This document shows positions 30,569-58,817 of a stretch of DNA of 64,000 nt, one piece after another; position 1 is the stretch's first letter; each line of letters starts with the position of its first letter. The notes under the pieces were generated by a model, which was given only the letters and a program-made list of their open reading frames with translations, had not been told where the DNA came from and ran no database searches. Source of the stretch: Pontederia crassipes (taxonomy: Eukaryota; Streptophyta; Magnoliopsida; Commelinales; Pontederiaceae); NCBI GenBank assembly GCA_030549335.1, contig CM060195.1, positions 13,793,501 to 13,857,500 of the forward strand. The letters run 5' to 3'. Both the position numbers and the translations under genes were made by a program.

Positions 30569-32215
30569 TGATGCGTTGTATTGATGTAGCAAAATAGAAT
30601 AGCTAGCAAGTGCACTAGTCGCTCAAGTAATATAGTAATAGGAGTAAGAGTGTCGAACCCACGAGGAATATTATTAATTCAATATCTGGATTTATAAATT
30701 AATAAGAGAGGAAAAACATGGATTTTTGGAAAGAGGTTTTATGAAATAAAATAAAGAAAATAAGATAAAGATAAGATAGTGGTGTTGAAGTTAGACCTTA
30801 GGATGAAAATAGATCAGGATAAATATTTGAACCATAAAAGATAAATTTAATCTTTAAAGATGGATTAGAGTCTCCCTAAAGTAATCTAACATGATTAACT
30901 TGTGGTCTTCACGACTGGCATCCCTCAATCTAATCATATAGAACTATCTTAATTTAATAAGAATTGAAGTCTCCACGACTGGTACCCCCAAAATCATATT
31001 AAAATTAAGATGCATTAAATTGAATTCTCTAGACTATTAATCACACCACAAACTGGTATAGATTAATAGACCACACAAACTTGATTCTCCACACACTAGT
31101 TATCAAATTTATGTCAATTATTAATTCCAAATAAAATCAATTATAATTAGTATAATGAATTCTGAAATTAAACACTCCACAAACTGGTATAGCCTAATTC
31201 AGAAATTTAATTAACTAATATAAAAGTATTAAGCACAATTAATAATTGATCAGAAAAGATTAAAGCAAATAAAATAGGGTCCAAACATTTCCCTTCAATT
31301 AATAATCTCCTAAAATAATAATCCTAAAAGCATGGAGTTCATCCTAGAAATTCTGGAGAGATAATAAAATACAAATCATAAAAATTGAAAGAATTACACC
31401 CAAAATAGAGATCTCGAATCTGGCAAACAGTCGGGCAGCCTCTCGGACTTGATCAGGGTCGTGATCAACCTCCAACCATCGCACCTCTCTCCTCTTGGTC
31501 GTAGCCTGCAGAGCTCACGACTTGCCGTGGAAGAAACCTGAACTTCAGAGCACCAATTGAAACGACAGATTCTTCACGTATTTATAAGGTGCGGACGGCC
31601 TTCAATTTGATCGTGATGTACGGCCGAATTTAAATTCACGGATAAATCTCGGCCAAAAATGATAATTCTTTCAAAAGATAAATTCTTTTATCTTTACCCC
31701 CTTTGAATCTCGGCCAAAAAGAGATAAAATTCCTTTTACTCCCTCCAAATCTCGGCCGTAAGGAAGGAATTTAATCTTGTTACGCCCAAAAGATAAAATC
31801 ATTTATCTTTACCTTTCATATCTCGGCCAAAACAGAGAATTAAATCCCGTTACGCCCAAACAATTTTATCTTTACACCTTCATATATCGGCCAAAAGGAT
31901 GATTTCATTGCCATTACCCCCATCCAAATCTCGGCCAAAACAATAATCCTTTATCCTAATCTCGGCCGTAATGATAAATTCTTCGAAATTTTGGCCGATA
32001 TGGCACAATCCATCTAAATCTCAATTTTTCCTGCAAAATAATTATCAAAATTTAGTTAATCCATCCACAATTAAAATATTCAGAGAATTAATAATTAAAA
32101 TTGATAAATCTGGAATTATGATTAAAAATGACTAAAAATGATGCATGCCATGATCAAATTACAAAAAAATTAATTAAAATAATAATCTAAAATATGTTGT
32201 ATTTTGCATGCATCA
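30569..32215 (-). repeat. 3' LTR of the 14.4-kb element
   Basis: 1647 bp. Between 30895 and 31200 it has five degenerate units with cores such as CTCCACGACTGGTA and CTCCACAAACTGGTA. CGGCC(G/A)-type motifs lie at about 31615-32000. The TATA box is at 31577-31587. Confidence 0.93.
31577..31587 (-). promoter_or_regulatory. TATA box in LTR
   Basis: The minus strand reads CTTATAAATAC. In minus orientation it lies directly downstream of the CGGCC-motif array (31615-32000). The counterpart in the other LTR is CCTATAAATAC at about 44296-44306. Confidence 0.65.
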
Positions 32216-32230
32216 AACTCCCCCAAGCTT
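32216..32230 (-). other. Polypurine tract of the 14.4-kb element
   Basis: The minus strand AAGCTTGGGGGAGTT abuts the 3' LTR and is identical in type to the PPT of the 50371-63044 element. Confidence 0.85.
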
Positions 32231-32700
32231 AAAGTCTTGCTTGTCCTCAAGCAAAAATTCAAGGCAAGGCTCAAGAAAGTTCCATCATAGCCGCCACATT
32301 GTCAATTGATTAATTTTCTCACACAATTCTTTTGCACACCTGCTACTCAGTATCTCACCATTTTCCATGCACTTAGCTTCATAGAGGTTCTGAATGCTAC
32401 AAAAATTTAAACAATATCAAATTCAGCCTTGCAGAAAAATAAATTATCTGTCAAATAATAGCATTAATATTGAACACATAAGTACTAATTGAGCTTAAAA
32501 CTTTTTTTTTCATTTTTATTTTCAATCATTTTAAAAGTTCTAATCTTCAAGCAGGATTGCACAAGGAAGTTCATATAGCGGGCTTTAGACTGATGACTCC
32601 TAGACCAGATGATCTTAGGGCACCAGGTGATAAAGCACCCCTCGAGTTTACTTGCCCGAACAACCAAGGTTCTGAATGAAGAGTTCAAACTTAGCCATGA

Positions 32701-32850
32701 TTCAGTACTCATGTGCTTCTCCATATTCCACAAGATGGTCCTTGTAGCAGGTTTTCGATCGACGGATCCCTGAGCAGTTGCCCTTAGGTCGCCAGGCATG
32801 AACCCCTACGGATCTAATTACCCGAACACACTTTGGTTCCGGATAACACT
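32701..32850 (-). other. Conserved 145-nt non-coding block
   Basis: The minus strand carries GTGTGTTCGGGTAATTAGA, GGCGACCTAAGGGCAACTGC, GGATCCGTCGATCGAAAACC and GGAGAAGCACATGAGTAC. The same order and spacing occur twice at 12660-12990. It sits between ORF3/internal PPT and the 3' LTR. Confidence 0.65.
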
Positions 32851-33317
32851 TTTGTACCTACACATAACTTTATTCATTTTTTTTTATTTGTTGGGGTTTA
32901 ACTAACCCTTCTTTTTTTTATAAGCTCAAAAAGTACTTGATATGGTCAATAAGAAGACTACTACTAATCAAGACTTAAAAGAAATAAATAAAAAAGGCAT
33001 GAATATGATTTTGTCGTCTAGTCATTCATAATTCTACTTAGCATGGGCACACAGTCTATAAGTTTGATACTAAAATAGCAAGTGATAAGAAAGAAAAGTA
33101 TTCAAATTTCATCAATTAACAATATCTTTGAACTTCTACTAAAAGATAATTAAAATAATAAGACAAGAGTTTGTAAGATGGTAGCAAAAATAAATGCATG
33201 CAATGGTATTTTTTTGAAAATTTTCAAAATTTTCAATTTTTTTGGATTTTTTTTTTACAAATAGATGCAAACATAAGCAAATAAAAAGAAAGAAACATGC
33301 AATGCATGGAATGCAAA

Positions 33318-33356
33318 CTCCCCCAAGCTTGAACTAGACACTGTCCTCAGTGTTAA
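33318..33356 (-). other. Internal hairpin plus PPT after ORF3
   Basis: Minus strand: AACACTGAGGACAGTGT, then AGTTCAAGCTTGGGGGAG. It is a short stem (ACACT/AGTGT) followed by a second polypurine tract identical in core to the terminal PPT. Confidence 0.65.
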
Positions 33357-33434
33357 GCTAGCAAGGAAAAGTGATACATACTTAAATAAAAAAGGAAAAA
33401 TAAAGAAATGAAAAGGGAAAAGACACAACCGGAT

Positions 33435-35111
33435 TTACTGTCTGCGGGGTAGCGATGGTGGATGGTAGCCGAGATTTCCTTGGCGCATATGATACTCATG
33501 GATGCGCCTCGTCATGCGCGCATGCTGATTCTGAAGGGATTCGAAGCGACCCTGACGATCATCCATATTTTTAAAATCGGCTCGAATGTTGGTCAACTCT
33601 TGTGCTTGTCGAAGTTGCTCTTCCTGAATAGCGTGCAACTGCCCTGACTGATGAAGTTGTTCTTCTTGAAAAGTGTGAAACTCCCCTGCTTGACGAAGTT
33701 GTTCATCATACATTGATTCCCATAAGTTTTGCATGGAAGCATAGTCAGGCTGAGGTGGTGGAAGTGGATAGTAAGTCTGCTCTGGGGCTGAAGTAAAAGT
33801 GGGCTCCGGTGCTATATAGCGATTCTGCACAGGTTCTTGTAAAGGGGCAGATACTTCCATCGAGTCGCGTTCCTCATAAGGAGTAGAAGGTATGAACGAG
33901 GAATCAGAAGAGCTCTCTTGTGCTGAAGATGGAATTGGAGAAGGCACCGGCATATAAGTTGAATGGACGGATGTGGCATATTGGGAAGCTGCCGGTGATG
34001 CAGCCTGGAATCCTTGTGGCTGTTGAAGGTAGGATTGGGCTGTCGCATAATCAGTAGAATCAAACCAGGAGAAAGGTTCATCCTGGTGTAGCTGTCCGAC
34101 AGAGGTAGATGGTCCTGCAGGTGGGATTACTGGAGCTATGACCTGCCTAAAAAGGAGCCAATTATTTGGATTAATTGGCATGAAAGCATCTCGATCTGAG
34201 CAGGGCACCTCCTGATTGTGGCCTTTAAAAATAAAAACTTTGATCCCTGAGTTGTTGGTCTTCACGAGACCCATAGCCTGAATGGTCCTACGAGAGAGGT
34301 GAGTGTTTCCTGGCACAGCTTCGAGATCATCCAAGTCAAGTTGTAGATGCTGAGCAATAGGTGTGAGAAGGGCACCCATATTAATGCTACCGCCACGATG
34401 AGTAGTGCGGCGCTGGAATCGACGAATGAGGAAGGCACCCACATTAACAGGAGTTCTATGAAGCATACTGTGGATGAGATATAACTCTCCCTCTGAGACG
34501 GCACCATCATTATCACTGCGTCCACTTAAGGTGTTGCTTAGCATGCGATGGACGTAGCGCAGAACAGGATTCTGAATTGAGCTATCTTTAGCGGTTTTCC
34601 AAACCAATCGGTCTTCTTCGGTTATCTGTTTCCAAAAAGTTTCCGCATCAAAGTCAGTAGGTACAGAAAGAGATCCATGATTGGGGAATCCATAGATATT
34701 ATTAATCTCTCCTAGAGTGAGAGTAAAGGGTCGCCCATAAAGTTGGAATGAAATGCGGGGTTGATCATAGTTCCTGCCATCTAAATTAAAGACTTCCAGG
34801 GATGAGAGAAATTTCATAATTAGTACTTCATAAGTTGGCCACCAAGAATGCACAAAGTCAAAGAGTCCAATCTGAGAAAATAATAGATGAATATCTGTAA
34901 GTAAATTATACTCCCTCAGCAATTCGATATCCGAAAATCTGGTGGCATGAATTCGAATCTCACACATCCGTTCATATCGAGCTTGATACGCCGGCTTAGT
35001 CCAATAATAATCTCCGGGGTAGGAGATTAATTGTGAGGGCTGTGGGGCCGGCTGAGCATTCGAATGTCGTCGTTCTTGATGTCCCCTCCATATATTAGCA
35101 AATCGCCTCAT
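33435..35111 (-). CDS. ORF3, Athila/Tat accessory protein, uninterrupted
   Basis: This is a 558-codon ORF after integrase. I start at MRRFANIWRGHQ (35111), because TTTTTGTCCAG just upstream looks like a splice acceptor for a subgenomic mRNA. The frame is open to 35135. Residues about 65-145 hold the family core (HLLFSQIGLFDFVHSWWP, ISFQLYGRPFTLTLGE, NNIYGFP), then IQNPVLRYVHRMLS and a basic RRFQRR. The second half is rich in Pro, Gln and Ser, with three heptad-like repeats (EQLRQAGEFHTFQE, EQLHQSGQLHAIQE, EQLRQAQELTNIRADF) suggesting a coiled coil. I see no signal peptide or membrane segment, so an envelope role is not supported. Decayed relatives occur at 10723-12155 and 15550-22330. It may belong to the Athila ORF1/plant transposon protein families; the function is unknown. 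Confidence 0.75.
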   Translation of the reverse strand: MRRFANIWRGHQERRHSNAQPAPQPSQLISYPGDYYWTKPAYQARYERMCEIRIHATRFSDIELLREYNLLTDIHLLFSQIGLFDFVHSWWPTYEVLIMKFLSSLEVFNLDGRNYDQPRISFQLYGRPFTLTLGEINNIYGFPNHGSLSVPTDFDAETFWKQITEEDRLVWKTAKDSSIQNPVLRYVHRMLSNTLSGRSDNDGAVSEGELYLIHSMLHRTPVNVGAFLIRRFQRRTTHRGGSINMGALLTPIAQHLQLDLDDLEAVPGNTHLSRRTIQAMGLVKTNNSGIKVFIFKGHNQEVPCSDRDAFMPINPNNWLLFRQVIAPVIPPAGPSTSVGQLHQDEPFSWFDSTDYATAQSYLQQPQGFQAASPAASQYATSVHSTYMPVPSPIPSSAQESSSDSSFIPSTPYEERDSMEVSAPLQEPVQNRYIAPEPTFTSAPEQTYYPLPPPQPDYASMQNLWESMYDEQLRQAGEFHTFQEEQLHQSGQLHAIQEEQLRQAQELTNIRADFKNMDDRQGRFESLQNQHARMTRRIHEYHMRQGNLGYHPPSLPRRQ

Positions 35112-35149
35112 CTTGATCTGGACAAAAATCAGCAAAGAAAAGGTGCCGG

Positions 35150-36030
35150 CTCAGTGAAAGCTCGGCCGTAGTATGTGTTGAAGAGCTGATTGTCGGAGGT
35201 GCGTCGGCCGTAAGGCAGAGAGGATGAGGTACCTCGGCCGAGGTGATGATCTTGTAGTTTTCGGCCGTAAGGAATGGCGGTGTGGCGCTGGTGTTCGGCG
35301 CTCGTCTGGGCGTAAGGAGTCAGCTCCGGTGGAAGCTCGGCCGTAATATGTGTCGGCCGTAAAGTGAAAAGTCGATGAGGAATCTCGGCCGGAGTCAATG
35401 ATTGAGTAGATTGTGCCCGTAAGGTGACGACCATGTTGATGGCAGCTGACGTCTCGGCCGTAAGGAGAAAAGCTCGACCGGAGTTTGGCCGTAAGAGAGC
35501 GGCGTGATAACGGCCGTGTGACTTCGGGCATAAAAGAGCAGCGGTGACGCCGTGAGACTTCGGCCGTAAAACGAAGGCGGCGTGGAACTTTGGGCGTAAG
35601 GGAGCAACGGTGACGTCGTTGAGACTTCGGGCGTAATGCACAGAGGGCGTAAGGGAGCGGCGGTGCGCGGTGTTGAGGCTCGGCCGTAACGAAGAAAGGG
35701 CGAGACGGCGGTGATTGATCTGCAACATACGAGAAGGGGGTAAGATTTTATAGATGAATTTATGGGGGTAATACCTGTTCCGACAGCGCGCAGTGAAGGG
35801 TCAAATCCGAGCGTAAAAGCATGCATTTTTTTTCTTTCGATTGGACTTGTGCATGCAGATGTTCTGTCTTGTCATTCTCGTCTGTGGTGTGATTGCATAA
35901 CACCTCAGCCGTAAAAAGACATCTGGCGTGGCCTCGGCCGTAACGAGGTGGCAGTGTCTTGTCATGTCCGTTGGAGTCTTTACGGCGTGGTCATCGAGGT
36001 GATTCTCGGCCGTAACGAGGAACATGGCGT
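35150..36030 (-). repeat. CGGCCGTAA motif array, spacer before ORF3
   Basis: About 20 copies of TCGGCCGTAA or one-step variants (GGGCGTAAGG, CGGCCGGAG) lie in 880 bp, as read on the plus strand, spaced about 25-60 bp. The overlapping Pro/Arg/Ser-rich minus frames at 35129-35826 are by-products of this array. Confidence 0.8.
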
Positions 36031-36335
36031 AATAGTATATTGTCGTTTCGCCTTGTGTTTCCCAATTCATGCATGGTGCATTCCTCGGTCGACGTATGAT
36101 TATCCGAATTCCGCTCGGTGCACAGAAAGAAATATCGATTAGATGACTCGATATAAAATAAAAATAAAATGCCTAATTAAAATAAAATTATCTCCCAAAC
36201 TAAGATATTAAAATGTTAATCAGTAACTAATTAAACTTATCTAAAAAAATTAAGTAAATAAAATAAAATAAAATAAAAAGGATAGAAATAGTTCTGATTT
36301 ATAGTCGTCAGCTTGACTTAGTTCTGATGAAAATT

Positions 36336-37263
36336 TCACACATCATAGAGAGTGATCATAGAAAGGTTATGATAATAAGTGCCACCATGATAAAGTTTCA
36401 ATCTATGTCCATTCACTTTGAGTCTTTGTTTTTTGTCTAATGATTCAATCTCAAAAGTTCCATAGGGTGAACAATTAATTATAACATAAGGTCCGGTCCA
36501 TCTTGATTTAAGTTTTCCAGGAAATAATCTGAGTTTACTATTATAAAGAAGTACTTGTTGACCAGGTAAAAATTTTTTATGTTTAATGTGCATGTCATGT
36601 AAATTTTTTGTGCGTTCTTTATATAGCTTGCTATTTTCCTATGCATAGTGTCTAAATTCATCAAGCTCATTTAATTGTAATAACCTTTCAGATTGTGATG
36701 ATTTTAGATTCATATTTAAAAATTTTGTTGCCCAATAAGCCTTGTGTTCTAGTTCCACAGGAAGGTGACATGCTTTTCCATAAACTAATTTATAAGGAGA
36801 AGTACTTATGGGTGTTTTAAAAGCAGTCCTATATGCCCAGAGTGCATCATCTAATTTCAAAGACCAATCCTTTCTAGATGAATTTACAGTTTTCTCTAGA
36901 ATCCTTTTTATCTCTATTTGAAATTTTCACTTGTCCACAAGATTGGGCATGATATGGTGTACTCAAAAAATGTTTGACTCCAAATCTATTAAGAAGAGTT
37001 GACATTATTTTATTATAGAAATGTGTTCCATTGTCACTTATGATAGTCCTAGGTGTTCCAAATCGAGTAAAAATATTTTTTCTTAGAAAGTTGGCAACTA
37101 CCTTGGCCTCATTTGTTGGTGTGGCTACAGCTTCTACCCATTTGGAAACATAATCAACCGCCACTAAGATGTATTGGTTGTTAAAGGATTTAGGGAATGA
37201 TCCCATAAAGTCAATGCCCCAAACATCAAAAATATCACACTGTAAAATATTTGTGAGAGGCAT
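36336..37263 (-). pseudogene. Integrase core and C-terminal domain (broken)
   Basis: The core reads [16 protein letters not shown] (first Asp), [17 protein letters not shown] (second Asp) and [13 protein letters not shown], where the catalytic Glu is replaced by Lys. A frameshift follows at about 36895-36905. Then come [16 protein letters not shown] and, after another frame change near 36600-36640, PGQQVLLYNSKLRLFPGKLK and NGHRLKLYHGG of the C-terminal domain. The Glu change corresponds to a G-to-A transition. The enzyme would insert cDNA into the genome; this copy cannot. Confidence 0.85.
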
Positions 37264-37383
37264 TTCATCTCGACGAGAAATATTACCTATCCTTTGACAT
37301 TTGTCACAATACTTACAGTAGTTTCTTGCATCTCTGTAAATGGTTGGCCAATATAGTCCACATTCAAGTACCTTAGCCGTTGT

Positions 37384-38260
37384 TCAATTGGGTCCAAAGT
37401 GACCTCCAGCTTGTCCATCGTGGCAATGACTTAGGATATTATCAATCTCATCTTCGTGAACACATCTTCGAACTACTTGATCTGCACATAATCGAAAAAG
37501 GTAAGGATCTTCCCAGTGATAATTCTTGACATCAGATAAGAATTTCCTTTTTTGATGAGTGGTCATGCCCTTTGGAATGTAATGTCCTGCAAGGTAATTA
37601 GCAAAATCAGCGAACCATGGTGTAGTGTCAGAAATTTGAAAAATTGTAGAGATAGAAAAAAGTTTCACGTCTGGGAATTCTTCAAGTATGTTTGTGACTT
37701 CTCTTGGAGATGGCTCCAAACGAGATAGGTGATCAGCTAATAAGTTTTCAGTCCCTTTTTTGTCTTTTACTTCCACATCGAACTCTTGCAAAAGTAGTAT
37801 CCATCGGATTAGTCTAGGTTTGGCATCTTGTTTGCTCATCAAGTGCTTGATGGCTACATGATCTGTGTAGACAATAATTCTTGAACAAATTAGATATGAT
37901 CTAAACTTGTCAAAAGCAAAAATAACAGCAAGAAACTCCTTCTCTGTTGTTGCATAATTTAGTTGGCAGCATTCAATGTCCGGCTTGCATAATATATAAC
38001 ATGAAATGTTTTATCTTTTCTTTGCCCTAAAACAGCTCCTACGGCACCATCACTCGCATCGCACATCAACTCGAATGGTAAAGACCAGTCTGGTGCTACA
38101 ACAACGGGGCAGAAATTAGCATTTCTTTTAACAAATTAAAGGCAGCAAGACATTCTGAATCAAAATCAAATTTTGTGTCCTTAGCAAGAAGATTAGTTAA
38201 GGGTTTAGCCATTTTTGAAAAATCTTTGATAAAACGGCGATAAAATCCTGCGTGCCCAAG
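37384..38260 (-). pseudogene. RNase H and integrase zinc-binding region (broken)
   Basis: The left part (37384-37842) is open and includes [30 protein letters not shown] and the start of the integrase HHCC region ([14 protein letters not shown], then stop). The RNase H start ([19 protein letters not shown], about 38020-38090) and FYRRFIKDFSK (about 38225-38250) are in other frames. At least three frame changes separate these pieces. Confidence 0.8.
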
Positions 38261-38266
38261 GAAGCT

Positions 38267-39052
38267 TCAAATACCCTTCACATTGGTTGGAGGAGGCAGA
38301 TTTGCAATAACATCTATCTTGGCCTTATCCACTTCAATTCCTTTTTCTGAGATTTTGTGGCCAAGAACTATACCCTCCTTAACCATGAAGTGACATTTCT
38401 CCCAGTTAAGGACCAAATTCGTTTCTTCACATCTCTGCAAAATTAGAGATAAGTTATCCAAACAGTTATTAAAAGAGCTACCAAAAAGTGTAAAATCATC
38501 CATGAAAACTTTGAGTATCTTCTCATTCATATCTGCAAAGATTGACATCATGCATCTTTGGAATGTTGCTGGAGCATTGCATAGACCAAATGGCATCCTT
38601 CTATAGGCAAATGTTCCATATGGACATGTGAACGTTGTCTTTTCTTGATCCTCAGGTGCTGCTGTTATTTGATTGTATCCAGAATAGCCATCTAGAAAAC
38701 AATAATAGCTATGACCTGCAACACGCTCCAACATTTGATCAATAAAAGGTAATGGAAAATGATCTTTGCGGGTAGCATCATTAAGCTTTCTATAGTCTAT
38801 ACAGACTCTCCAACCTGTAACTGTTTTTTGAGGCTCCAATTCATTATTTTTGTTACTTACCACAGTGATTCCTCCTTTCTTAGGAACTACCTGCACATGA
38901 CTTATCCATGAACTATCAGAAATGGCATATATAATACATGCAACAAGGAGTTTGATGACCTCCTTTTTCACAACTTCCCTTAAAGTTGGGTTGAGCCTTC
39001 TTTGATATTGAGCAATTGGCTTGGCATTGTCCTCCATCAAAATCTTGTGCAT
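38267..39052 (-). pseudogene. Reverse transcriptase domain
   Basis: This 261-codon open segment has the Athila/Tat RT hallmarks: [68 protein letters not shown] and the active site VFMDDFTLFG. It begins after a TGG-to-TAG stop and frameshift near 39060-39140. It ends at a CGA-to-TGA-type stop (NVKGI, stop, SFLGHAGFY). The RT core itself looks intact. Confidence 0.88.
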
Positions 39053-39134
39053 GCAAATGGTAGGAGAGATGCCCCTGATATCTGAAATAGACTAAGCGAT
39101 TGCTTTCTTGTGTTGCCTTAATACTTCCAAAAGT

Positions 39135-40345
39135 TTATTCTCCATCATCTGTCAAGTCAGCAGATATGATAACTGGGTAAGTGTTATTTTCAAGAAAAGC
39201 ATATCTTAAATGAGATGGAAGTTCTTTAAGTTCGAATTTTGGAGGACAATCCAATTTTTCAATTTCCTCCTCGAGTGTCTCTGTTGTTATTGGCGCATTA
39301 TCCTCTCCCACAATTTCTCTAGAATCCTCCATCATTTCCAAAGCTTCCTTAGCATATGGATCTGAAACAAAATCTGCAACAATATCATCAAAAGCATCAG
39401 TCGTGTCATCTTCTAGAGAATCAATAGCATAACAGGATGAGTGATCAAAAGGTTGTTTGAGAGAATTTTTTATATTGAAAGTGATGTCTTCGTTGTTGAC
39501 GCGAAGTGTGAGCATCCCTTGTTGAACATCTATAAGTGCATTTCCTGTGGCTAAAAATGGTCTCCCGAGGATGATAGGGGTTTTTTCATCTGCTTCATAT
39601 CCAGAACAATAAAATCTGCAGGAAAAATAAATTTATCAACTTTTACCAAAAAATCTCTTAATATTCCTTGGGGTCTCTTGCATGAAGAATCTGCAAATTG
39701 AAGAGTCATGCTTGTTTCTTCTAATTCTCCATAACCTAGCTGCACAAATATAGAGTAAGGCATTAAACTTATACTAGCACCAAGATCACATAAAGCTTGT
39801 GCACAAAAGAATTTTCCTATAGTGCAAGGTATGGTGAAGGTTCCCGGATCCTTCATTTTTCTAGGTATATCTCGATCATAAATGGCACTACACTCCGATG
39901 TCAACATTACTCTCCCAGTGTTTTCAAACTTTCTTTTTGAGGATAATATATCCTTCATGAATTTAGCATAGCTCGGCATCATCTGTAAAGCTTCATGAAA
40001 GGGAATGTTAATAGATAATTGCTTCAGAATATCAAGAAAGCGAGAAAATTGCTTATCTAACTGTTCTTTGCGAAATTTTTGTGGATAGGGCAGATCCTTT
40101 ATGTTGGTATTTTTTGAATTGTCAGTTTCTTTTTTCTTCATATTGATATCTACAGTAGTCTGATCTTGTGTCTTTGATGCTTCAGTTTCTTCTTTATGAT
40201 CAATTACTCTTGGCGGGGAATCTGATCTCAGACTTCTCAATTGTTTCCCACTTCTAAGAGTCACAGCTTTGGTCTCTTCGTTAGGATTTTTCTCTGTATT
40301 GCTTGGAAGAGTCCCTGGTGCACGTTCTGCCATCATATTGGCCAT
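39135..40345 (-). pseudogene. Gag-Pol linker and aspartic protease (broken)
   Basis: The segment 39551-40345 contains RSGKQLRSLRSD, YPQKFRKEQLDKQF, LPYSKFMKD-like motifs and the protease site ALCDLGASISLMPYSI. A one-base loss near 39600 (GATATGAAGC where an extra G is expected) shifts into 39135-39515. That segment continues with LTLRVNNEDITFNI and ELKELPSHLRYAFLENNTYP, the linker to RT. Confidence 0.82.
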
Positions 40346-40519
40346 CTACCCTATTTGCATTTCTAAATTCCTGATTGTAGCATCTTGATTGTTTGCCCTT
40401 GTTTCCATTGTCTTCTGCATGGTTTGCATAGTGTCAATAACTCTTGCCATCATCTCTTTCATGGGATTAGTCGATTGTTGGACAGGAGCTTCTTGTTGCC
40501 TTCTCAAAAGTGTATAATT

Positions 40520-41560
40520 TTATGGATGAGCTTGATTCTGAAATTTCTCAAAAACTTGCCCTTGATTTGACCTGTAAGGAAACTTCTGATTGTTCCTCCA
40601 ACCATAGTCATTATTCCTGAAAAATGGATTGAAGACAAAGTTAGCATTTTCAATATGATCAGGATTAGAAATGTTATCTTGAGGACAATAATTGCTCGCA
40701 TGTCCTCCTCCACAGTTGTTGCACACCATTAATGACATCATCTGCTCAAATTTTTGATTAAGTGACTCTAGCTGAGTCACTACTTTAGAAGAATTTTTAC
40801 TTTCTGTAGCATGCACATCATGAGTTCGGCGAGATGGTCTCCTTTCTTGGCTCGACTTGAGGGCTACAACTTCAATTATATCTTGTATCTCACTATGACG
40901 TTTAGATCCTAGCACTGTCCCTCCTGCTGATTGGTCGAGTTTGTCTTAATCTGCATGTCATAATCCATGATAGAAATCTTTCATCACTTGCCACTTTGGA
41001 ATTCTGTTGTCAGGAACTCTAGCTAATAGTTCTTTATATCGTTCCCATGCCTCATATAATGTCTCGTTATCGTCTTGAACAAATGCCCTCAATTCTCTTC
41101 GATATTTGCCTACCTTTTGTGGTGGACAATATTTTCCAACAAACTTTTCTACTAGCTCCAACCAAGAATGAATCGATCCTGCAGGCAAAGTTTTAAACCA
41201 AGTGGAAGCTTTGTCACGTAAAGATTGAGGAAATAATAATAAACGAATAACTTCAGAAGAAACATTATTATTTCTAAAGGTGCTCAGAGTGGCAAGAAAT
41301 TTGTCAAGGTGATCGTGAGGGTCTTCATGAAATCCTCCTCCAAATTGGGATGCTTGTATCATCCTCACGATTGCGAGATTTATCTCAAAATTATTTGCGT
41401 TAATATCAGGCAGCACGATGCATGATTCTCGGTCACTGTATCTGGCCGAAACATATTCTCTCATAGAAAGCTCTGCTTCATCTTCTCGCCGATTATTATG
41501 TGGTGGAACCAGTTCATTTTGTTGCTCCAGTCTCTGATTGTCGCGTGCTTGTTCCGCCAT
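40520..41560 (-). pseudogene. Gag (broken)
   Basis: The start is ATG 41560 (MAEQARDNQRLEQQN). The retrotransposon Gag domain follows: VLPDINANNFEINLAI, DKASTWFKTLPAGSIHSW, FVGKYCPPQKVGKYRREL, MKDFYHGL. A stop and frameshift at about 40950 lead to 40520-40915 with LGSKRHSEI and the zinc knuckle CNNCGGGHASNYC (C-x2-C-x3-H-x4-C spacing, as expected for Tat-type Gag from memory). A further frame change occurs near 40505-40560. Confidence 0.85.
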
Positions 41561-41814
41561 TTTTCATATATTTCTTCGTAATCGACGATAGGTTCTTTCA
41601 ATTTCAGGGATCAAATTCCAACAGTGGATTTGAACTCCTAGTGCACTTATTAGAAGATTTCAGGATTGGTTGTGATTTAATTTTCAATTAGTACCTGCAA
41701 TAACCAATTTTCAGTAAGATGAAAGAATAAAATAAAATAAAAATATATACAAGAAGGAAGAAATACAGATAATAGGTCACGAAAAATGAGATTTTAACAA
41801 ATAAAGTCTTTCGG

Positions 41815-43100
41815 CCAGATAGAATTGAAAATTCGTCATTAAAATTAATTTTCGAGAGAAACTTTTCAGAAACCTAATTACGGCCGCAAACGGAGGTTCT
41901 TCAAACCAATACAAATGCCAAATAACTCGACTGAAAGTAAATTAAATAGATAATCGTAAAAATCATGCACTCGTTCGGCCGTAAAAACCATGAAACAGTG
42001 TCGAAAGGATTAATCAACTTGAAGGCGTAAAACTCGTTAAATTACGGTCGAAACAAAATCATAAGATGGCATAAACATTAACACGACGATGAATCATTTC
42101 GGTCGAAAGAGAATTAAATTGACTTCTGCGGCATAAAGAATTAATCAACTCCTCGCATATAAAACTCTAGGTGTAAAGAATCGAAGTCAACAATCTTTGG
42201 CCGAAATAAAAATCGAACAAAATGTCGACAAATGAATTATTATGGCCGAGGAAGAGGACAATTCATATCGGCCGTAAATCGATGAAAATTAAGTCGAACG
42301 TGATCCTTGATGGCCGAGAAAGAAAAATTCACAAATAAACTGGCCGAAAAGGTCGTAATATGGCGTAAAAACAAATGTTCAGAAATTTATCGGCCGCAAA
42401 ATAATTCGATCGTGAAGTTTCAGTCGTAAAACTCAGATTAAATTTGCTAGCCGCAAAATATAAGCAAAGACTTTTGCGGTGTAAAAGATTTTTCGAAATT
42501 ATTAAAGGCGAAAGAGGTCAAATCAATAATAAAAGGAATTTTACGACCGTAAAATCATGAGATCAATTCTCGGCCGTAAAAAGAAAACCTGAGATAATGG
42601 ATTGTCAGAGATTAAATTCTCATCTGCAAGCTTAATCAATCATATCACAAGAGAGAGAATTCAATTCGATCTGGATGAAGTGAAATACCGGCCGTAAAGA
42701 TAAAAATTGTCAACTAAGCCGAAATGAGATCACATCGGCCGAGATGAAGTCAACATGATTGGCCGTAAATCAAAATAGGGTTTCGGCCGAAATAAAGTCG
42801 AATGAAACTTGAGAATATTATCCCAACTCTTACGTCGACAATTGAATCATTACGGCCGAAAGTGAATTAAGTTGATTCTTTGCGGCCATAAAACAACGAA
42901 ATCAAATCAACTAGAACAAACCACTTTGGCCAAAACGAGATCAAATCCATGGCATAAAATAACGTTCGAATAAAATTACGGTCGTAAAACAAAAGATTAG
43001 AACTCAATCGATATTGCGAGCCGTAAAACCAGTAAAGCCGACAAAAATCAATCTCGGTCGTAAAACCATAAGACGGCGACAGAATTTTAAGTCGAAAGTC
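41815..43100 (-). repeat. CGGCCGTAA motif array, 5' leader
   Basis: About 35 copies or decayed copies of CGGCCGTAAA (plus-strand sense) lie in about 1.28 kb between gag and the PBS, roughly one per 36 bp. The intervening sequences are unrelated to each other. Decayed copies are mostly transition variants (GGCATAAA, GGTCGTAAA, CGGCCATAAA), as expected from deamination of methylated cytosines. Confidence 0.85.
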
Positions 43101-43262
43101 GACAATTTAAAAAATTATCGTGACCTTTATCTGCAAAAGAAAAAATGTCAGTTTATTCACAAAAATAATTAAAACAATTAAAACATATTTATAAAAAATT
43201 ATTTACAATTTATTTACATCTCCTAATAATTCATAAAAATAAAAAATTAATTAATAAAATAG

Positions 43263-43280
43263 TCCCCGGCAACGGCGCCA
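43263..43280 (-). other. Primer binding site (tRNA-Asp type)
   Basis: The minus strand TGGCGCCGTTGCCGGGGA is 18 nt long and lies 6 bp from the 5' LTR. It is an exact complement of the plant tRNA-Asp 3' end as I remember it. Confidence 0.9.
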
Positions 43281-43286
43281 AAAACT

Positions 43287-44923
43287 TGATGCGTTGTATT
43301 GATGTAGCAAAATAGAATAGCTAGCAAGTGCACTAGTCGCTCAAGTAATATAGTAATAGGAGTAAGAGTGTCGAACCCACGAGGAATATTATTAATTCAA
43401 TATCTGGATTTATAAATTAATAAGAGAGGAAAAACATGAATTTTTGGAAAGAGGTTTTATGAAATAAAATAAAGAAAATAAGATAAAGATAAGATAGTGG
43501 TGTTGAAGTTAGACCTTAGGATGAAAATAGATCAGGATAAATATTTGAACCATAAAAGATAAATTTAATCTTTAAAGATGGATTAGAGTCTCCATAAAGT
43601 AATCTAACATGATTAACTTGTGGTCTTCACGACTGGCATCCCTCAATCTAATCATATAGAACTATCTTAATTTAATAAGAATTGAAGTCTCCACGACTGG
43701 TACCCCCAAAATCATATTAAAATTAAGATGCATTAAATTGAATTCTCTAGACTATTAATCACACCACAAACTGGTATAGATTAATAGACCACACAAACTT
43801 GATTCTCCACACACTAGTTATCAAATTTATGTCAATTATTAATTCCAAATAAAATCAATTATAATTAGTATAATGAATTCTGAAATTAAACACTCCACAA
43901 ACTGGTATAGCCTAATTCAAAAATTTAATTAACTAATATAAAAGTATTAAGCACAATTAATAATTGATCAGAAAAGATTAAAGCAAATAAAATAGGGTCC
44001 AAACATTTCGCTTCAATTAATAATCTCCTAAAATAATAATCCTAAAAACATGGAGTTCATCCTAGAAATTCCGGAGAGATAATAAAATACAAATCATAAA
44101 AATTGAAAGAATTACACCCAAAATAGAGATCTCGAATCTGGCAAACAGTCGGGCAGCCTCTCGGACTTGATCAGAGTCGCGATCAACCTCCAACCGTCGC
44201 ACCTCTCTCCTCTTGGTCATAGCCTGTAGAGCTCACGACTCGCCGTGGAAGAAACCTGAACTTCAGAGCACCAATTGAAACGACGGATTCTTCACGTATT
44301 TATAGGGTGCGGACGGCCTTCAATTTGATCGTGATGTACGGCCGAATTTAAATTCACGGATAAATCTCGGCCAAAAATGATAATTCTTTCAAAAGATAAA
44401 TTCTTTTATCTTTACCCCCTTTGAATCTCGGCCAAAAAGAGATAAAATTCCTTTTACTCCCTCCAAATCTCGGCCGTAAGGAAGAAATTTAATCTTGTTA
44501 CGCCCAAAAGATAAAATCATTTATCTTTACCCCGGCCAAAACAGAGAATTAAATTCCGTTACGCCCAAACAATTTTATCTTTACACCTTCATATATTGGC
44601 CAAAAGGATGATTTCATTGCCATTACCCCTCCAAATCTCGGCCAAAACAATAATCCTTTATCCTAATCTCGGTCGTAATGATAAATTCTTCGGAATTTCG
44701 GCCGATATGGCACAATCCATCTAAATCTCGATTTTTCCTGCAAAATAATTATCAAAATTTAGTTAATTCATCCACAATTAAAATATTCAGAGAATTAGTA
44801 ATTAAAATTGATAAATCTGGAATTATGATTAAAAATGACTAAAAATGATGCATGCCATGATCAAATTAAAAAAAAAATTAATTAAAATAATAATAAAAAA
44901 TATGTTGTATTTTGCATGCATCA
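43287..44923 (-). repeat. 5' LTR of the 14.4-kb element
   Basis: 1637 bp, about 98 percent identical to 30569-32215 by hand comparison, with two short indels (near 44531 and 44628). The CGGCC-type motifs (44338-44710) lie immediately upstream (minus sense) of the TATA box at about 44296-44306. Confidence 0.93.
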
Positions 44924-44928
44924 TGGGA

Positions 44929-45690
44929 TGACAGGAGTGCCTCTCTGATTCACTGATGCCAGTAAGACCGTAAATGAGGAAAAAGGGGGTGGGTGTTAAT
45001 ACCTCACCCAGTTCGGAAAGTAGGGGGATGAATTCCTACAATGCAGGAACAGTGATCAGTTACTAGACCTGTAGGTTCACTTTCTCCTCAGCTAGCTATA
45101 TGTCCCTCTCGCATAATACTTTAATCTTTAAGGGAAGAGGTGTGACCATAGCATCACCCTTCAATTCGAGATATCGGTGGGAGAACACCTGAAATCTCAG
45201 GGATAGTGGGCATTTAAGCTAGTAGCTTTGTTGTCCCCTCAGCTAACTACCTATCCCCAATTACTTTAATCTCTGATCTGTACTTTGACATTGGGGGCGG
45301 CACATAGCGATCCCGCATCTTTGTCTTTACTTTAATTATCTTTAGTTAATGTGAAATCTATGATTTAGGATCCATTGGAAGTTGATCCTTGCACAATGAG
45401 ACTCAGCCAGTATAGGTGAACTGGTCAGAATTGTAATTAAGATTAGGAGTGGATCAGTCCGATTAAGTTCGATTAAAGAGTCTCTGTTGGACCGGTCGAC
45501 CGCTCGTAATGGACCAGTCAACCGCTCACTGCTATCGGTCGACCGGTCCTCTAGGATCGGTCGGCCGAGTTCTTTAATTGGGCAGATTACAAATCGGTTG
45601 ACCGATTAGGGTGTCGATCGATCGTTCGATAAGCCATGAAGACGCGCACTGCACGTCGAATCGGTCGACCGCTCTTTGGATCCGATGGAC
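44929..45690 (-). repeat. Tekay 3' LTR, proximal part
   Basis: This continues the LTR after the nested insertion and matches 49589-50370. Its right portion (45485-45690) is rich in CGGTCGACCG motifs. It ends at ...TCCGATGGAC, homologous to TCCGTTCGAC at 50361-50370. Confidence 0.85.
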
Positions 45691-45811
45691 TGATCACTAG
45701 TTGATCACTATAAGTTTTTATCCCATTTTAGATGCATTTCATTCATATCGAGCCCCACTTTTGCCTATCTTTTGGCAAATTATGCTTGGAATGCATGGAT
45801 TGTGATATCTT
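45691..45811 (+). repeat. Fragment of the Athila-type LTR fused to Tekay RT
   Basis: The first 120 or so bp of the LTR of the 50371-63044 element (TGATCACTAGTTGATCACTA onward) sit at the position in the left Tekay LTR that corresponds to where that element is inserted in the right Tekay LTR. The sequence then switches to Tekay RT through a short repeated CCTATCTTTTGG tract. Confidence 0.8.
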
Positions 45812-48822: not shown

Positions 48823-50370
48823 TGTAACACCCTCAAAATCGCACCTTCTGCCACGTAGGCGATCAGATTGACTCCGAAGGTGCTACATTATCTATTGCTC
48901 TACTGACCTTGACCATTCAACAAAATAGCTTACGTAGCACTAATAAAATAATAATAAACATAATAGAGGACTTTAAATGCGGAAATTCCATAGTCGAATA
49001 TTAAGATGAAGTACTGAATGCAGAAGTTCATGATGTCTCATATTATAGAAATTATGCGAAAGTTCACGATGTCTTTCAGTATAAGAATTATGCGGAAACA
49101 AAATAGACTTGCTAGAAGTTCTATGAGCGGAAGAAAACATTATGTCCTTGAACAATTAAAATGATTAAACAGATATGTAGTAAGAAAAACTCGGAGCAGA
49201 AACATCAATCATGTGCAGCATTCTCCAAGCTCTGTGCCCTCCATCTCCTCATTAGTTGGCATTCTCACCTGCAAAATCCCAATGCAGGGGAATATAATAC
49301 CCATGAGCAAAGATGCATATCAATACTTTGTTCCTTGCTATAACAATGTTTGATCTTTATATTACTCTGCTCTTAATTTACCATGTCTCTGCTTTGCTTT
49401 ACTGTACTTTGCTTTACATTGCTCTGCTATACATTATTTTACATTGCATTGATTTACTGTACAATACTCTGCTTTACATTGCTTTACATTACTTTGCTTT
49501 GCTGTGAGTTATACTACGTCTTTTACATTACTATGATATCCTTAGAGTTTGTTGTCCTATGCAAGCTCAACTTTATTAGGTTGGGATGCCAGGGGTGCCT
49601 CTCTGATTCACTAATGCCAGTAAGACCGTAAATGAGGAAAAAGGGGGTGGGTGTTAATACCTCACCCAGTTCGGAAAGTAGGGGGATGAATTCCTACAAT
49701 GCAGGAACAGTGATCAGTTACTAGACCTGTAGGTTCACTTTCTCCTCAGCTAGCTATATGTCCCTCTCGCATAATACTTTAATCTTTAAGGGAAGAGGTG
49801 TGACCATAGCATCACCCTTCAATTCGAGATATCGGTGGGAGAACACCTGAAATCTCAGGGATAGTGGGCATTTAAGCCAGTAGCTTCGCTGTCCCCTCAA
49901 CTAACTACCTATCCCCCATTGTTTTAATCTCTGATCTGTACTTTAACATTGGGGGCAGCACATAGCGATCCCGCATCTTTGTCTTTACTTCAATTATCTT
50001 TATTTACTGTGAAATCTATGATTTAGGGTCCATTGGAAGTTGATCCTTGCACAATGAGACTCAGCCAGTATAGGTGAAGTGGTCAGAGTTGTAATTAAGA
50101 TTAGAAGTGGATCAGTCCAATTAAGATCGATTAAAGATTCTCTATTGGACCGGTCGATCACTCGTAATGGACCAGTCGACCGCTCGTAATGGACCAGTCG
50201 ACCGCTCACTGCTACCGGTTGACCGGTCCTCTAGGATCGGTCGGCTGAGTTCTTTAATTGGGCAGATTACAAATTGGTTGACCGATCAGGGTGTCGGTCG
50301 ACCGTTCGATAAGCCATGAAGATGTGCACTGTGCGTCGGATCGGTCGACCGCTCTTTGGATCCGTTCGAC
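48823..50370 (-). repeat. Tekay 5' LTR, first part
   Basis: It begins TGTAACACCC, equivalent to 29735 onward. It preserves the uninterrupted target (TTGGGATGCC near 49583) of the 14.4-kb element. It is rich in CGGTCGACCG motifs at 50140-50370 and is interrupted at 50370. Confidence 0.87.
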
Positions 50371-50564
50371 TGATCACTATAAGTTTTTATCCCATTTTAG
50401 ATGCATTTCATTCATATCGAGCCCAATTTTTGTCTATCTTTTGGCCAATTATGCTTGGAATGCATGGATTGTGATAATTAATTGATCTTGCTCATTTCAT
50501 ACTTAATTCCATGTGCATAGAGGTTCTAAAATGCTAAAATCAATAAATAATTCAATTCTATGTC

Positions 50565-51110
50565 AAGTTATCATTTTTAGGACAAGTTATCACTCCAATA
50601 GGTCAAGTTATCATTATTTTAAGTGAACTGATTTTCAATGATTTTCTTGCCCTAAATCCATTACTATCATGAATGAATCATATTTGGATGGTCATATCTC
50701 AACTTGTGCAAAGTTTTAAGTCCATTTGAACAAGTTATCATTTTTCCTTTACCAAGTTATCGTTAAAGGGCAAAATTGTTATTTCGATATGCAAAACTAT
50801 CAATTCTGCACAAAGGCCTTAGGCAATCGTTGTATTATTGTCCTAACTCATTGTTGTTCAAATTTGATCACATTTGGATAACCACAACAAAAGTTATGAC
50901 AAGTTATCATTTTTAAGGCAATTTAAGTTATCGTTTTGGCACCCAAGTTATCATTCCTATGAAATCTTATTCATATTTAATTTCTGACTTCACTCACTTG
51001 CCACCCTAATCCATTTGATGCCTTCAATGCTCTGAACCATCCATATTTGATCATTTTCCAAGATTTATGCAAAGTTATCATTCGGGGCATTGATAAGTTA
51101 TCATTTCAAC
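50565..51110 (+). repeat. AAGTTATCATT motif array in U3
   Basis: Ten copies of AAGTTATC(A/G) lie in about 545 bp (for example 50567, 50583, 50603, 50732, 50754, 50900, 50926, 50945, 51072, 51093), 280-830 bp upstream of the TATA box. Further copies in both orientations occur later in the LTR and in the 3' non-coding region (59380-59430). Confidence 0.8.
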
Positions 51111-51390
51111 CTTGATTTGCAATTCTGCATAACACTTAATCATACTTGGTGTTTGAGCTGATCATAGTGGTCTCCTTTATCCTTATTTGTTCATTTTCTA
51201 TTTGAGGACTTTGATGCTTGATGTTCTATCACTTCTAGCAGGAAAAAATAAGTTGCAAAAGGTTGGAAAAAGGTGGGGGGACCACTCCAAAAAGCTATTG
51301 ATTTCTGCGGCTGGAATGTCAGGACTAGAGAGGTGGCTCACATCAGAGGCTAAGGGATATCTAGATGCTGATCTAAGGGTGATTCAAGGC

Positions 51391-51400
51391 CATATATAAA
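51391..51400 (+). promoter_or_regulatory. TATA box of the Athila-type 5' LTR
   Basis: CATATATAAA. The counterpart in the 3' LTR is CTATATATAAA at about 61315-61325. It is the only strong TATA match between the motif array and the PBS. Confidence 0.6.
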
Positions 51401-53174
51401 CTGAAGAAACCCTGGATCAAGGGGGGAGGGCTGGCCATTGCGGGGTTTGGAGCAAGAGGAAGCAAGGGTTTGGAGGAAGCTCTGCTGCTGTGTTGCTGCT
51501 GCTTCTTGTCGACCAGCATCCAAGATGATTTACTTCTGTTCTCCAGTCTATTTTGTTTCAAACTTTGTAATTATGAGGATCTAAACTCCATGTCTCCTAG
51601 GATAGGATAGTAATCTAATATATGTTGTGGATGGATTAGGAACAAGCCTGATTTCCTGTACTGAACTCAATCCTGAATTTTCATATTTCTGCAATGTTAC
51701 GGGTCTGTTCTTGCCATTGTTAGATCCCATTTGTAATTTATAACTGAGAAGTTATCATTTGATCTAGCCATTATTCAGAAATGAATTAGGAATCAATGCC
51801 AAGTTACTGGATTCCATTTTGATTGAAAATCTGATTTCTGATTTCCTAATTTTTTGAACTTCCTGAATCTGATTTTCTGATTTCCTTGAATTTGTTTGTT
51901 AATTGGGATTTGATTAATTGAGCAACTGAGAGGTTGATATTGGTGCAAGTCTTGTTCAGAAATGAATCAAGATACTTTGGCATTTTATGATTCAAACATG
52001 TCCTCCAATTCTGAATTCTGAAATTATATTCCTGAAATCTATTTTCTAAAATTTATTGAAATCTGATTTGCTAACTGAGTCTCCAATTTCATTCAATCAC
52101 TGAAAGATGAACCCTAAGGATTTCTTATTGTCCAGAGATTGATCAATAAGCACTTAGCAAATCCAGAATTCCCATGAGAAGCATTGCTGATTTCCTTCCT
52201 GTTTTCCCAATCTGATTTCTGAAATTATTTCCCTGAATTCTGATTTCTGATTTCTTTGGAATCTGATTGCCATTGTTAAGCCCTACTTAATCCACCATTG
52301 AGAGATGGTTTTTAGGCATTCCTTGAGATTCAGAGATGAGCCAAGAAGCAATGACAATTTCTGATTTCCCATACTTGTATTAGATGCTGATTTCTATCCA
52401 ATTCATTAATGGAAATGTGGATTTCATTTGAATTTACTGCTGAGAAGCTAATTTTAAATCCTCTTGTAGTTTAGAGATAAACCAAGGAGCATTTGCATTA
52501 ATATTGGATTTATTTCATCCCTGTTTAGTTTATTGAAGCATTCCTTTCATTTTCAAGGTGCAATCTAGAAGTTATCATTTTAGATTTTATTGAAATTGCC
52601 AAAAATCAGCAAGTGCATTGAGTTGAACCCAATGATAACTTGATTTTCAGTGAGGATCCTTTTCTAATTCAACTTGGCGAACAATCATATGACAATGTAT
52701 TATTTAGTTCTGGTCTAATTGAGCTGTGAAAATAGCCATTTTAAAGGTTGGATTGGATTTGACTAAAAAAATGATAACTTGTTCCATTCCATCCATAATT
52801 AAGTTAGATGAACCCGAACTCCTAGGAGAACCTTCCTCATTGACAGTTAAACCTTTTTAGCTTATAATCTAGCATTTATAATTCAGTTTTGACAGATTTC
52901 CAAAACCCCAAAAATAGTTATCATTCTGCACAATTAAAAATCTATTTTTTTCAATTCCTTTAGTTTCCTATTTTTAGCCACTAAAGTAGAACTAGTCTAG
53001 ATTATTTTAGGAAGTCTTAGGCATCAAATTTTTGTGGATACAACAACCTGAGTCTACTACAACTTACCTGTGCACTTGCAGTTAGTGAGTTGAGAGACCA
53101 AAAATTGAAAAATTGCACTTTTACATAAAATTCAGCAAGTTATCACTACACCCACAATTTCACTATCAAGTTTT

Positions 53175-53192
53175 TGGCGCCATTGCTGAGGA
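53175..53192 (+). other. Primer binding site (diverged tRNA-Asp type)
   Basis: TGGCGCCATTGCTGAGGA differs at a few positions from the perfect PBS at 43263-43280. It lies 6 bp after the 5' LTR. Confidence 0.8.
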
Positions 53193-53343
53193 TTTGAGGT
53201 CAATTAGACTAACTTAGATAGTTTAGATTAATTTTTAGTCCATTTATTTGGCCAATTTTTAGTTTTTTCAAGTTATCATTCCCAATTTTCCATTTTTGTC
53301 TAGTTTTCTTTCTTTTCTCAATTTGATACTTCTGAATTCATTT

Positions 53344-53511
53344 ATGCAGGATTTGGACAATCAAGAGGACCATTACCAATCAGATCTTGAGCCTGAAAGA
53401 AGATTCTTAAGAAGAAGGAGATTGCAAAGGTTGGAGGCAAGAAGAAGGATATTTGAAGAAGAGGAAGAAGAGCAAGTAAACATGGCTGCACCAAGGACTT
53501 TGAAGGAATGA
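53344..53511 (+). pseudogene. Gag N-terminus, cut off by a stop
   Basis: MQDLDNQEDHYQSDLEPERR and an Arg/Glu-rich stretch run to TLKE and then TGA at 53509-53511. The same frame continues directly (YSPSNVRNQQGNGVLTP) into the long gag-pol frame, so a single substitution probably made the stop. ATG 53344 is chosen because it is the first good Met after the PBS in this frame. Confidence 0.75.
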
Positions 53512-53577
53512 TATTCTCCTAGTAATGTCAGAAATCAACAAGGGAATGGAGTCCTAACACCAGCTGCAGACTTTGAA

Positions 53578-57201: not shown

Positions 57202-57808
57202 TAAATTCAGATCTTATTTGATTGGATTCAAAGTAATTGTCTTCACTGATCACCAGGCAGTAAGGCACTTGATCAACAAGACGGAATCAAAACCAAGGCT
57301 CATAAGATGGATCCTATTGCTACAAGAATTTGATGTTGAAATCAGGGATAAAAGAGGGACAGAAAACTTAGTTGCTGACCACTTATCAAGGATGGAAGGA
57401 GTTCAGGATTCCAATGACTCACTCCCCATCAATGATTCCTTCCCTGATGACTTTTTAATGGCAATATCAGATGCCCCTACTCCTTGGTATGCTGATATTG
57501 TTAATTACTTGGCATGTGGGATTATTCCTTCTGACTTTTTCTATCAACAGAAGAAAAAGTTCTTCCATGACTTGAAGGATTTCTATTGGGATGACCCTCT
57601 TCTATTCAAAAAGTCCCCTGATGGCATTTTCAGGAGATGTGTACCAGAAGCTGAATTCCAATCAATTTTGTATAAATGCTACTCATCTCCATATGGTGGA
57701 CATGGATCCACTCAAAAGACTAATGCCAAGGTGCTACAATCTAGTTTCTATTGGCCTTCTTTGTTCAAAGATGCATATATGTATGTGAAGAGTTGTGATG
57801 AATGTTAA
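57173..57808 (+). pseudogene. RNase H (rest) and integrase zinc-binding domain
   Basis: The frame restored after the 57180 deletion starts [20 protein letters not shown], with [32 protein letters not shown] and [11 protein letters not shown]. It then has the HHCC region ending [20 protein letters not shown] and VKSCDEC. The next codon is TAA (57806-57808) where the family has CAA (Gln) before [12 protein letters not shown], a single transition. Confidence 0.85.
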
Positions 57809-58770: not shown

Positions 58771-58817
58771 ATCCACTTGGAAAAATGTTCAGCCTAAGAC
58801 ACTAAAGCAGGGCACTT

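Follow-up and report, generated by a model that had tools for sequence, protein, structure and literature searches.

Introduction

Enhancer repeats of the U3 region, such as BII of Tnt1, the L box of Tto1 and the heat elements of ONSEN, are repeated factor sites upstream of the TATA box. To our knowledge, these occur in few copies and are not repeated in the leader or in the spacer between pol and ORF3. The closest described parallel to the arrays reported here is found in the Sireviruses (Ty1/copia), whose repeated motifs (RM boxes), according to the sections of Bousios et al. (2010; PMC2829016) used here, are palindromic, have a CGG-CCG core in 12 of 13 cases, number 8-32 copies per element and form CpG islands. 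They cluster upstream of the TATA box of the LTR, the mean distance from island to TATA being 37 bp, and extra boxes precede the ENV gene. The consensus listed for a Vitis Sirevirus is CGGTCGACCG. Table 3 of the same paper contains four Sireviruses that bear motifs but lack ENV, the core being CGG-CCG in three of these, and the motifs are called Sirevirus-specific relative to the classic Ty1/copia elements compared there.

A second system is the DNA transposon VANDAL21, in which the self-encoded protein VANC21 binds a nine-base motif, YAGTATTAY, in non-coding, tandem-repeated regions (PMC5735166; PMC10398659, each cited from part of its text). In sunflower, an Athila clade has weakly methylated LTRs in every context, its GC being the highest among three clusters, and the authors ask whether Athila elements encode factors that shape methylation; the portion of that study cited here does not describe a CGG-CCG motif (PMC12844716). 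Among the open-literature matches listed, mostly titles and the beginnings of abstracts, we found no description of such arrays in Athila or other Ty3/gypsy elements. Here we analyze a 64,000-nt stretch of the Pontederia crassipes genome (the window), one element of which carries CGG-CCG palindrome arrays that extend the published Sirevirus kind of array to Ty3/gypsy and add an array in the 5′ leader. The array analysis covers this one element.

Results

The Carrier Element

A correction to an earlier note on this DNA concerns orientation. The element is 14.4 kb long and lies on the minus strand, and its 5′ LTR is therefore the copy at 43287-44923. Its main features are as follows.

30569..44923, minus strand: LTR retrotransposon with the arrays, assigned to Athila-type Ty3/gypsy (LTR pair, domain hits, flanking 5-mers)
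43287..44923, minus strand: 5′ LTR, ends TGATGC...GCATCA, pairs with 30569-32215
44298..44304, minus strand: LTR TATA box, TATAAAT
43262..43279, minus strand: primer binding site (PBS), TGGCGCCGTTGCCGGGGA
40958..41560, minus strand: start of gag (Retrotrans_gag by Pfam), motif-free
33438..35111, minus strand: ORF3, 558 aa, open; Pfam ATHILA ORF-1 family PF03078, E 1.3e-21
33314..33330, minus strand: extra polypurine tract, AAGCTTGGGGGAGTTTG, a 17-mer identical to one at 32214-32230 adjoining the 3′ LTR
30569..32215, minus strand: 3′ LTR, with a U3 array at 31590-32030 inside

The two LTRs differ at 27 of 1636 aligned sites, and 22 of the 27 differences are transitions. Read along the element, the order is the PBS (43279-43262), which we take to be of the tRNA-Asp type, followed by the leader, gag, reverse transcriptase (RT), integrase (IN), a spacer, ORF3 and two polypurine tracts, with Pfam matches to PF03732 (gag), PF00078 (RT), PF00665 (IN) and PF03078 (ATHILA; ORF3). 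The coding part upstream of ORF3 is split among several ORFs in this copy. Because gag, RT, IN and an ATHILA-family ORF follow one another in this order before the 3′ LTR, as in Athila, and because ORF3 matches PF03078, we place the carrier with the Ty3/gypsy Athila elements by gene order and ORF3. An additional polypurine tract, here located beyond the final ORF, is likewise a feature stated for Athila4/Calypso in the parts of PMC2829016 cited here. The element is nested in another retroelement and is flanked by the 5-mers TGAGA/TGGGA; an uninterrupted copy of the host retroelement has TGGGA at the matching place (49582).

ORF3 is 39-40% identical to the protein P0001, the same single protein having been returned by two homologue searches that each scored 7996 candidates. 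At E≤0.001, ORF3 matched the ATHILA family and, with a score under the latter's own cut-off, Transposase_32, neither of which carries functional information. No solved chain matched by sequence at E≤1, and the AlphaFold model (pLDDT 38) was too poor for a fold search. A long C-terminal helix was predicted. The segment FQLYGRPFTLTLGEINNIYGFPNHG may resemble plant mobile domain proteins; no such Pfam match was found in ORF3 at E≤1.

The Motif Arrays

Copies of the motif, scored below by the core CGGCCG and the longer palindrome TTWCGGCCGWAA, are concentrated in four places, far above chance.

41790..43120, no strand: leader array; 21 cores at ≤1 mismatch (9 exact), 16 palindromes at ≥10/12, CpG observed/expected (o/e) 1.93
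35140..36060, no strand: array of the pol-ORF3 spacer; 19 cores at ≤1 mismatch, of which 13 are exact, GC 0.54, CpG o/e 1.38
44310..44740, no strand: U3 array of the 5′ LTR; 10 cores at ≤1 mismatch (3 exact), CpG o/e 1.52
31590-32030, no strand: U3 array of the 3′ LTR; 11 cores at ≤1 mismatch (3 exact)

Each array thus holds 10-21 cores at ≤1 mismatch, compared with the at least 8 copies of a Sirevirus RM array. When the motif CGGCCGTAA was counted on both strands as exact matches and at ≤1 and ≤2 mismatches, the leader had 6/20/36, the spacer 9/15/30, the 5′ LTR U3 1/4/14 and the 3′ LTR U3 2/3/15, against means of 2.5, 2.8, 0.8 and 0.7, respectively, in 60 shuffles at ≤2 mismatches. Outside the arrays, the counts were 0/0/2 in gag-pol and 0/0/1 in ORF3, and none was found at ≤2 mismatches in the rest of the 3′ LTR or in the 3′ UTR. 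The excess over shuffled controls that the earlier note had anticipated is therefore present in all four arrays. Its copy numbers depend on the mismatches allowed: about 35 in the leader is reached only with two mismatches, there being 20 at ≤1, and its figures for the spacer (about 20) and each U3 (about 11) fall between the one- and two-mismatch counts.

Cores at ≤1 mismatch numbered one in gag-pol and three in ORF3 (1.8 per kb), the latter at background level, with 1.5 and 2.0 per kb in the flanks of the window and none in the 3′ UTR or the rest of the 5′ LTR. Palindromes matching TTWCGGCCGWAA at ≥10/12 numbered 16 in the leader, 11 in the spacer and 8 in the 5′ U3, where the maxima of 1000 first-order Markov simulations per array were 3, 2 and 2. 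There were none in the 3′ UTR, ORF3 or gag-pol, and the 30.6-kb and 19.1-kb flanks contained 2 and 1, as expected there. Overlapping matches were left unmerged in all counts, and the 3′ U3 was omitted from the simulations and from the pooled mismatch spectra because it duplicates the 5′ U3.

The repeated unit had been described as a 9-10-mer. A short repeated motif is indeed present, but the unit proper is a near-palindrome of ~12 bp, TTWCGGCCGWAA, with a CGG-CCG core. Over the four arrays, including the 3′ U3, the two core halves were directly adjacent (CGG-Nn-CCG with n=0) in 28 occurrences, as opposed to 6 for n = 1-11 together. With both sides of the core pooled, flank information by position was 0.17, 0.51, 0.83 and 0.21 bits in the leader and ≤0.15 thereafter, and 0.72, 0.47 and 0.34, then 0.19, in the spacer, with 0.18 at position 6. 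In both arrays it is centred on the core and fades beyond about 3-4 bp per side; the U3 was noisier (20 flanks, up to 0.38 bits at position 9). Frequent half-sites are CGTAA and CGAAA, as well as CGAG in the U3 and spacer, and the unit is therefore a near-palindrome. Its flank symmetry is found mainly in the leader, where HAA borders the core on either side in 8 of 21 sites; the U3 and spacer are asymmetric, and among sites with HAA on one side only, one orientation is favoured 6:1 and 11:0, respectively. Motif discovery by EM yielded a sensible matrix for the leader, one that was looser for the U3, and compositional drift for the spacer, and was not used for the counts.

Placement Relative to Promoters and ORF3

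In the 5′ LTR, the core nearest to the TATA box (44314-44319, one mismatch) lies 9 bp upstream of it and the nearest exact core (44339-44344) 34 bp upstream, so that the LTR copies do sit just upstream of TATA, as noted earlier and as in the Sireviruses. The leader array starts about 1.2 kb downstream of the same TATA box. The spacer array ends just ahead of ORF3, giving a cluster before an ORF whose env-like status is assumed from its lineage. All arrays are confined to non-coding regions, as are the VANC-type motifs.

35746..35752, minus strand: TATAAAA, which may be the TATA box of an internal promoter for ORF3; it lies within the spacer array with sites on either side

Spacer 9-mer sites (≤1 mismatch) occur upstream of this TATAAAA at 35906, 35935 and 36007, and the others lie between it and ORF3. 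A TATAWAW string arose by chance in the spacer in 4.3% of 2000 Markov simulations; the element strand of 30569-44923 contains 14 such strings in total, and a further TATAAAT is located at 36297-36303, just before the spacer array. An internal ORF3 promoter is thus possible from the sequence, as is expression of ORF3 by splicing.

Several overlapping minus-strand ORFs cover 35129-35826 of the spacer and show no sign of being genes. Several frames stay open here because, on the element strand, the motif lacks a stop codon whichever frame is read. We rejected these ORFs as genes, since the leader is also rich in the motif and contains no ORF of ≥100 aa.

Duplication, Decay and CpG Content

The flanks of the motif diverge from copy to copy, which agrees with the earlier view that the array is not a simple tandem repeat; it is not purely dispersed, however. 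Tandem Repeats Finder (TRF) detected duplications with periods of 66 bp and 53 bp in the spacer, and further duplications were found at a lag of 169 bp in the U3 and 753 bp in the leader. Part of the spread of the motif is due to duplication, and some copies lie inside old duplications. In four aligned internal duplications, 75 of 82 motif columns were identical, compared with 104 of 131 flanking sites (Fisher p 0.02), a test that is biased, since motif columns were chosen by core match, but suggestive of the palindrome being held better than its flanks. Between the two LTRs, 4 of 124 motif columns differ versus 23 of 1512 sites elsewhere, giving no sign of constraint since insertion (none was expected). 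Decay mainly by transitions, as proposed earlier, was seen in the leader (12 of 12 variants) but was weak over three arrays (20 of 25), the control, sequence outside the arrays, having 59 of 84 (Fisher p 0.03 for the leader and 0.45 for the three arrays).

Unmasked CpG o/e was 1.38-1.93 in the four arrays, as against 0.43 in gag-pol, 0.35 in the 3′ UTR, 0.70 in ORF3 and 0.81 in the rest of the 5′ LTR. When every 9-mer within three mismatches of the motif was masked, CpG o/e was still 1.19 in the leader (24 CpGs) and 1.12 in the spacer (32), compared with 0.40 in gag-pol and 0.22 in the 3′ UTR; masked ORF3 gave 0.69. Masked TpG/CpA values were 1.08 and 1.10 in the leader and spacer versus 1.27 and 1.18 in gag-pol and the 3′ UTR. 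The contrast was weak for the U3s, with 0.96 (5 CpGs) and 0.81 (4) versus 0.78 in the rest of the 5′ LTR. Long-term lower methylation of the leader and spacer would leave such CpG retention, though copies that have decayed past the three-mismatch limit could add to it. The GC content of the three arrays is 0.36, 0.37 and 0.54, exceeding 0.5 only in the spacer; the leader and U3, below 0.4, would fail the classical CpG-island GC cut-off.

Other Arrays in the Window and Searches for Relatives

Short arrays of a second palindrome occur elsewhere in the window.

45493-45671: CGGTCGACCG array (≤2 mismatches), second gypsy element, in one of the repeats flanking gag-protease-RT
50151-50351, continuing at 63088-63184 past a nested insertion: CGGTCGACCG array (≤2 mismatches), second gypsy element
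3809-4044: CGGTCGACCG-type array, CpG o/e 1.45 over 3760-4070

CGGTCGACCG is a CGG-CCG palindrome of spacing 4 and is identical to the Vitis Sirevirus motif as given in the part of PMC2829016 cited here. The second gypsy element has, in minus-strand order, gag (PF03732), protease (PF08284) and RT (PF00078), and breaks off in RT; no TATA box could be assigned downstream of its array. The array at 3809-4044 is followed after about 90 bp by TATAAAA on the plus strand (TATAAAAG at 4133). Summed CGG-N0-8-CCG occurrences in the four short arrays were 8, 6, 3 and 5, versus means of 1.1-1.3 and maxima of 6-8 in 500 composition-matched simulations, none of the four exceeding the simulation maximum; their distinguishing mark is spacing 4, which accounts for 3, 5, 3 and 4 occurrences. 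With caution, these short arrays suggest that the CGG-CCG core is not confined to copia elements.

The nested element itself (50371-63044) has LTRs of about 2.8 kb, a target site duplication (TSD) TCGAC and a 1207-aa gag-protease-RT-RNaseH ORF. It is nearly free of CpG (o/e 0.02 for the coding sequence, with 3 CpGs in 3624 bp, and 0.11 for the LTR), a striking depletion beside an open ORF, and no 500-bp bin wholly inside it contained ≥3 CGG-N0-8-CCG. A fragment of the start of its LTR at 45695-45810 is positioned relative to a CGGTCGACCG array like the full insertion at 50371, which suggests recombination between the two CGGTCGACCG-bearing repeats.

A search of viral contigs with a single RT sequence gave no DNA match. 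With patterns built on an RT alignment, viral contigs yielded 76 matches and genome contigs 14, and none of these was confirmed as a relative. A pattern of paired motifs found 46 loci in viral contigs, with 2-3 motif copies in 38 of them (highest 10) and GC above 0.5 in 37; by motif count and GC only, we took these for chance phage matches. In the literature, the titles of the matches listed for CGGCCGTAA showed no link to retrotransposons, and the string CGGCCG was absent among the matches listed for a plant factor; no candidate is named.

Discussion

The earlier note knew of no description of such an array. As to its kind this was wrong, since the Sirevirus CGG-CCG motifs, as reported in the sections of PMC2829016 cited here, show an almost identical layout: a palindrome, CGG-CCG at its core, in many copies, with a cluster shortly before the LTR TATA box (exact core at 34 bp here, island mean of 37 bp there) and another before ENV or ORF3. 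CpG o/e is high in all four arrays, GC in the spacer alone. Unlike the Sireviruses, the carrier is Ty3/gypsy Athila rather than Ty1/copia, the core halves touch, the flanks are AT-rich and partly asymmetric, and a further array, the largest, occupies the 5′ leader. The VANDAL21 arrays, in the parts of the sources cited above, resemble ours in that a short motif is repeated in the non-coding regions of one transposable element and was spread partly by tandem duplication; they differ in carrier class, in having YAGTATTAY instead of a CGG-CCG palindrome and in their self-encoded binder. The repeats of Tnt1, Tto1 and ONSEN share the placement in U3 before TATA, in few copies.

We consider it probable that the arrays are cis-regulatory clusters of double-stranded DNA-binding sites, of the Sirevirus repeated-motif kind, for a dimeric protein. 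Of the functions suggested earlier, an enhancer or transcription-factor array or a methylation island fits the dyad symmetry, the position relative to TATA and the CpG retained in leader and spacer. The palindromes TTWCGGCCGWAA would be bound by a dimeric sequence-specific protein, with the U3 array upstream and the leader array downstream flanking the LTR promoter and the spacer array flanking the possible ORF3 promoter. The bound protein would boost transcription and keep the arrays open and under-methylated, which we propose as the reason that CpG persists in the arrays and is depleted in gag-pol and the 3′ UTR. Copies would have multiplied partly by duplication, their flanks drifting while the palindrome was held. 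The protein is more likely to be the host's than the element's, a point on which we are less confident than on the binding-site reading itself; we favour a host factor because unrelated lineages share this core and because, in Table 3 of PMC2829016, Sireviruses without ENV also bear motifs.

The main rival is self-encoded anti-silencing, in which a protein of the element, ORF3 being the candidate, binds the palindromes and strips methylation as VANC does for VANDAL. It would account for arrays that are non-coding and also precede an extra ORF, as the VANC21 targets do in the cited part of PMC5735166, for the CpG retained within the leader and spacer arrays, and for an ORF3 that is open here and has a relative at 39-40% identity. 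ORF3's matches are nevertheless silent on function, a solved-chain match is lacking at E≤1 and the AlphaFold model is useless in this respect, and the four listed Sireviruses that bear motifs without ENV speak for a binder from elsewhere; we regard this rival as unlikely. A host small-RNA target is suggested by analogy with maize, where small-RNA hotspots lie over Sirevirus LTR palindromes (PMC5311732, cited in part). Elements would be expected to lose, not keep, a silencing target, and since the leader and spacer arrays are not CpG-depleted either, we rate it as highly improbable.

Two further readings were considered. Neutral decay of an old CpG-rich minisatellite, leaving remnants with no function, draws on the duplications detectable in U3, spacer and leader, as duplication alone can copy a motif. 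Yet what the arrays have in common is a unit of no more than about 12 bp, shared by three separate arrays of differing GC, the motif is missing from coding sequence, the 3′ UTR and the rest of the LTR or stays at background level there, and the leader and spacer keep CpG where gag-pol and the 3′ UTR have lost it, which makes this reading quite improbable. An RNA-level signal for packaging or dimerisation, or a structured leader, would fit the leader piece 42100-43090, which folds better than 20 of 20 shuffles (z -4.27) and lies at the edge of a control in which the motifs were kept (3 of 60 at or below native). The motif-kept shuffles had a mean of -237.2, between the native -247.9 and the -214.2 of full shuffles, so that about two thirds of the excess can be put down to the palindromes. 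The spacer showed no such excess (z -0.18; 9 of 20 shuffles as good), and the motif is dense outside the leader too, in U3 and spacer. The packaging signal raised in the earlier note is accordingly disfavoured, and we judge an RNA-level role very unlikely.

Binding-site clusters for a dimeric protein thus remain our preferred reading. As a wider conjecture, which we advance tentatively and think more doubtful than secure, CGG-CCG palindrome arrays may be a promoter device shared by copia Sireviruses, gypsy Athila elements and another gypsy lineage, each having acquired it convergently. One host protein family would open or demethylate the arrays, the spacing of the half-sites (0, 4 and others) would act as an element-specific channel, and the second array would drive the env-like ORF3 by way of an internal promoter. 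If such arrays do span copia and gypsy, they would represent a common way of keeping plant retrotransposon promoters active, and the protein that reads them should be findable. The array around the possible TATA box before ORF3 would also make expression of an env-like ORF, by an internal promoter or by splicing, directly testable.
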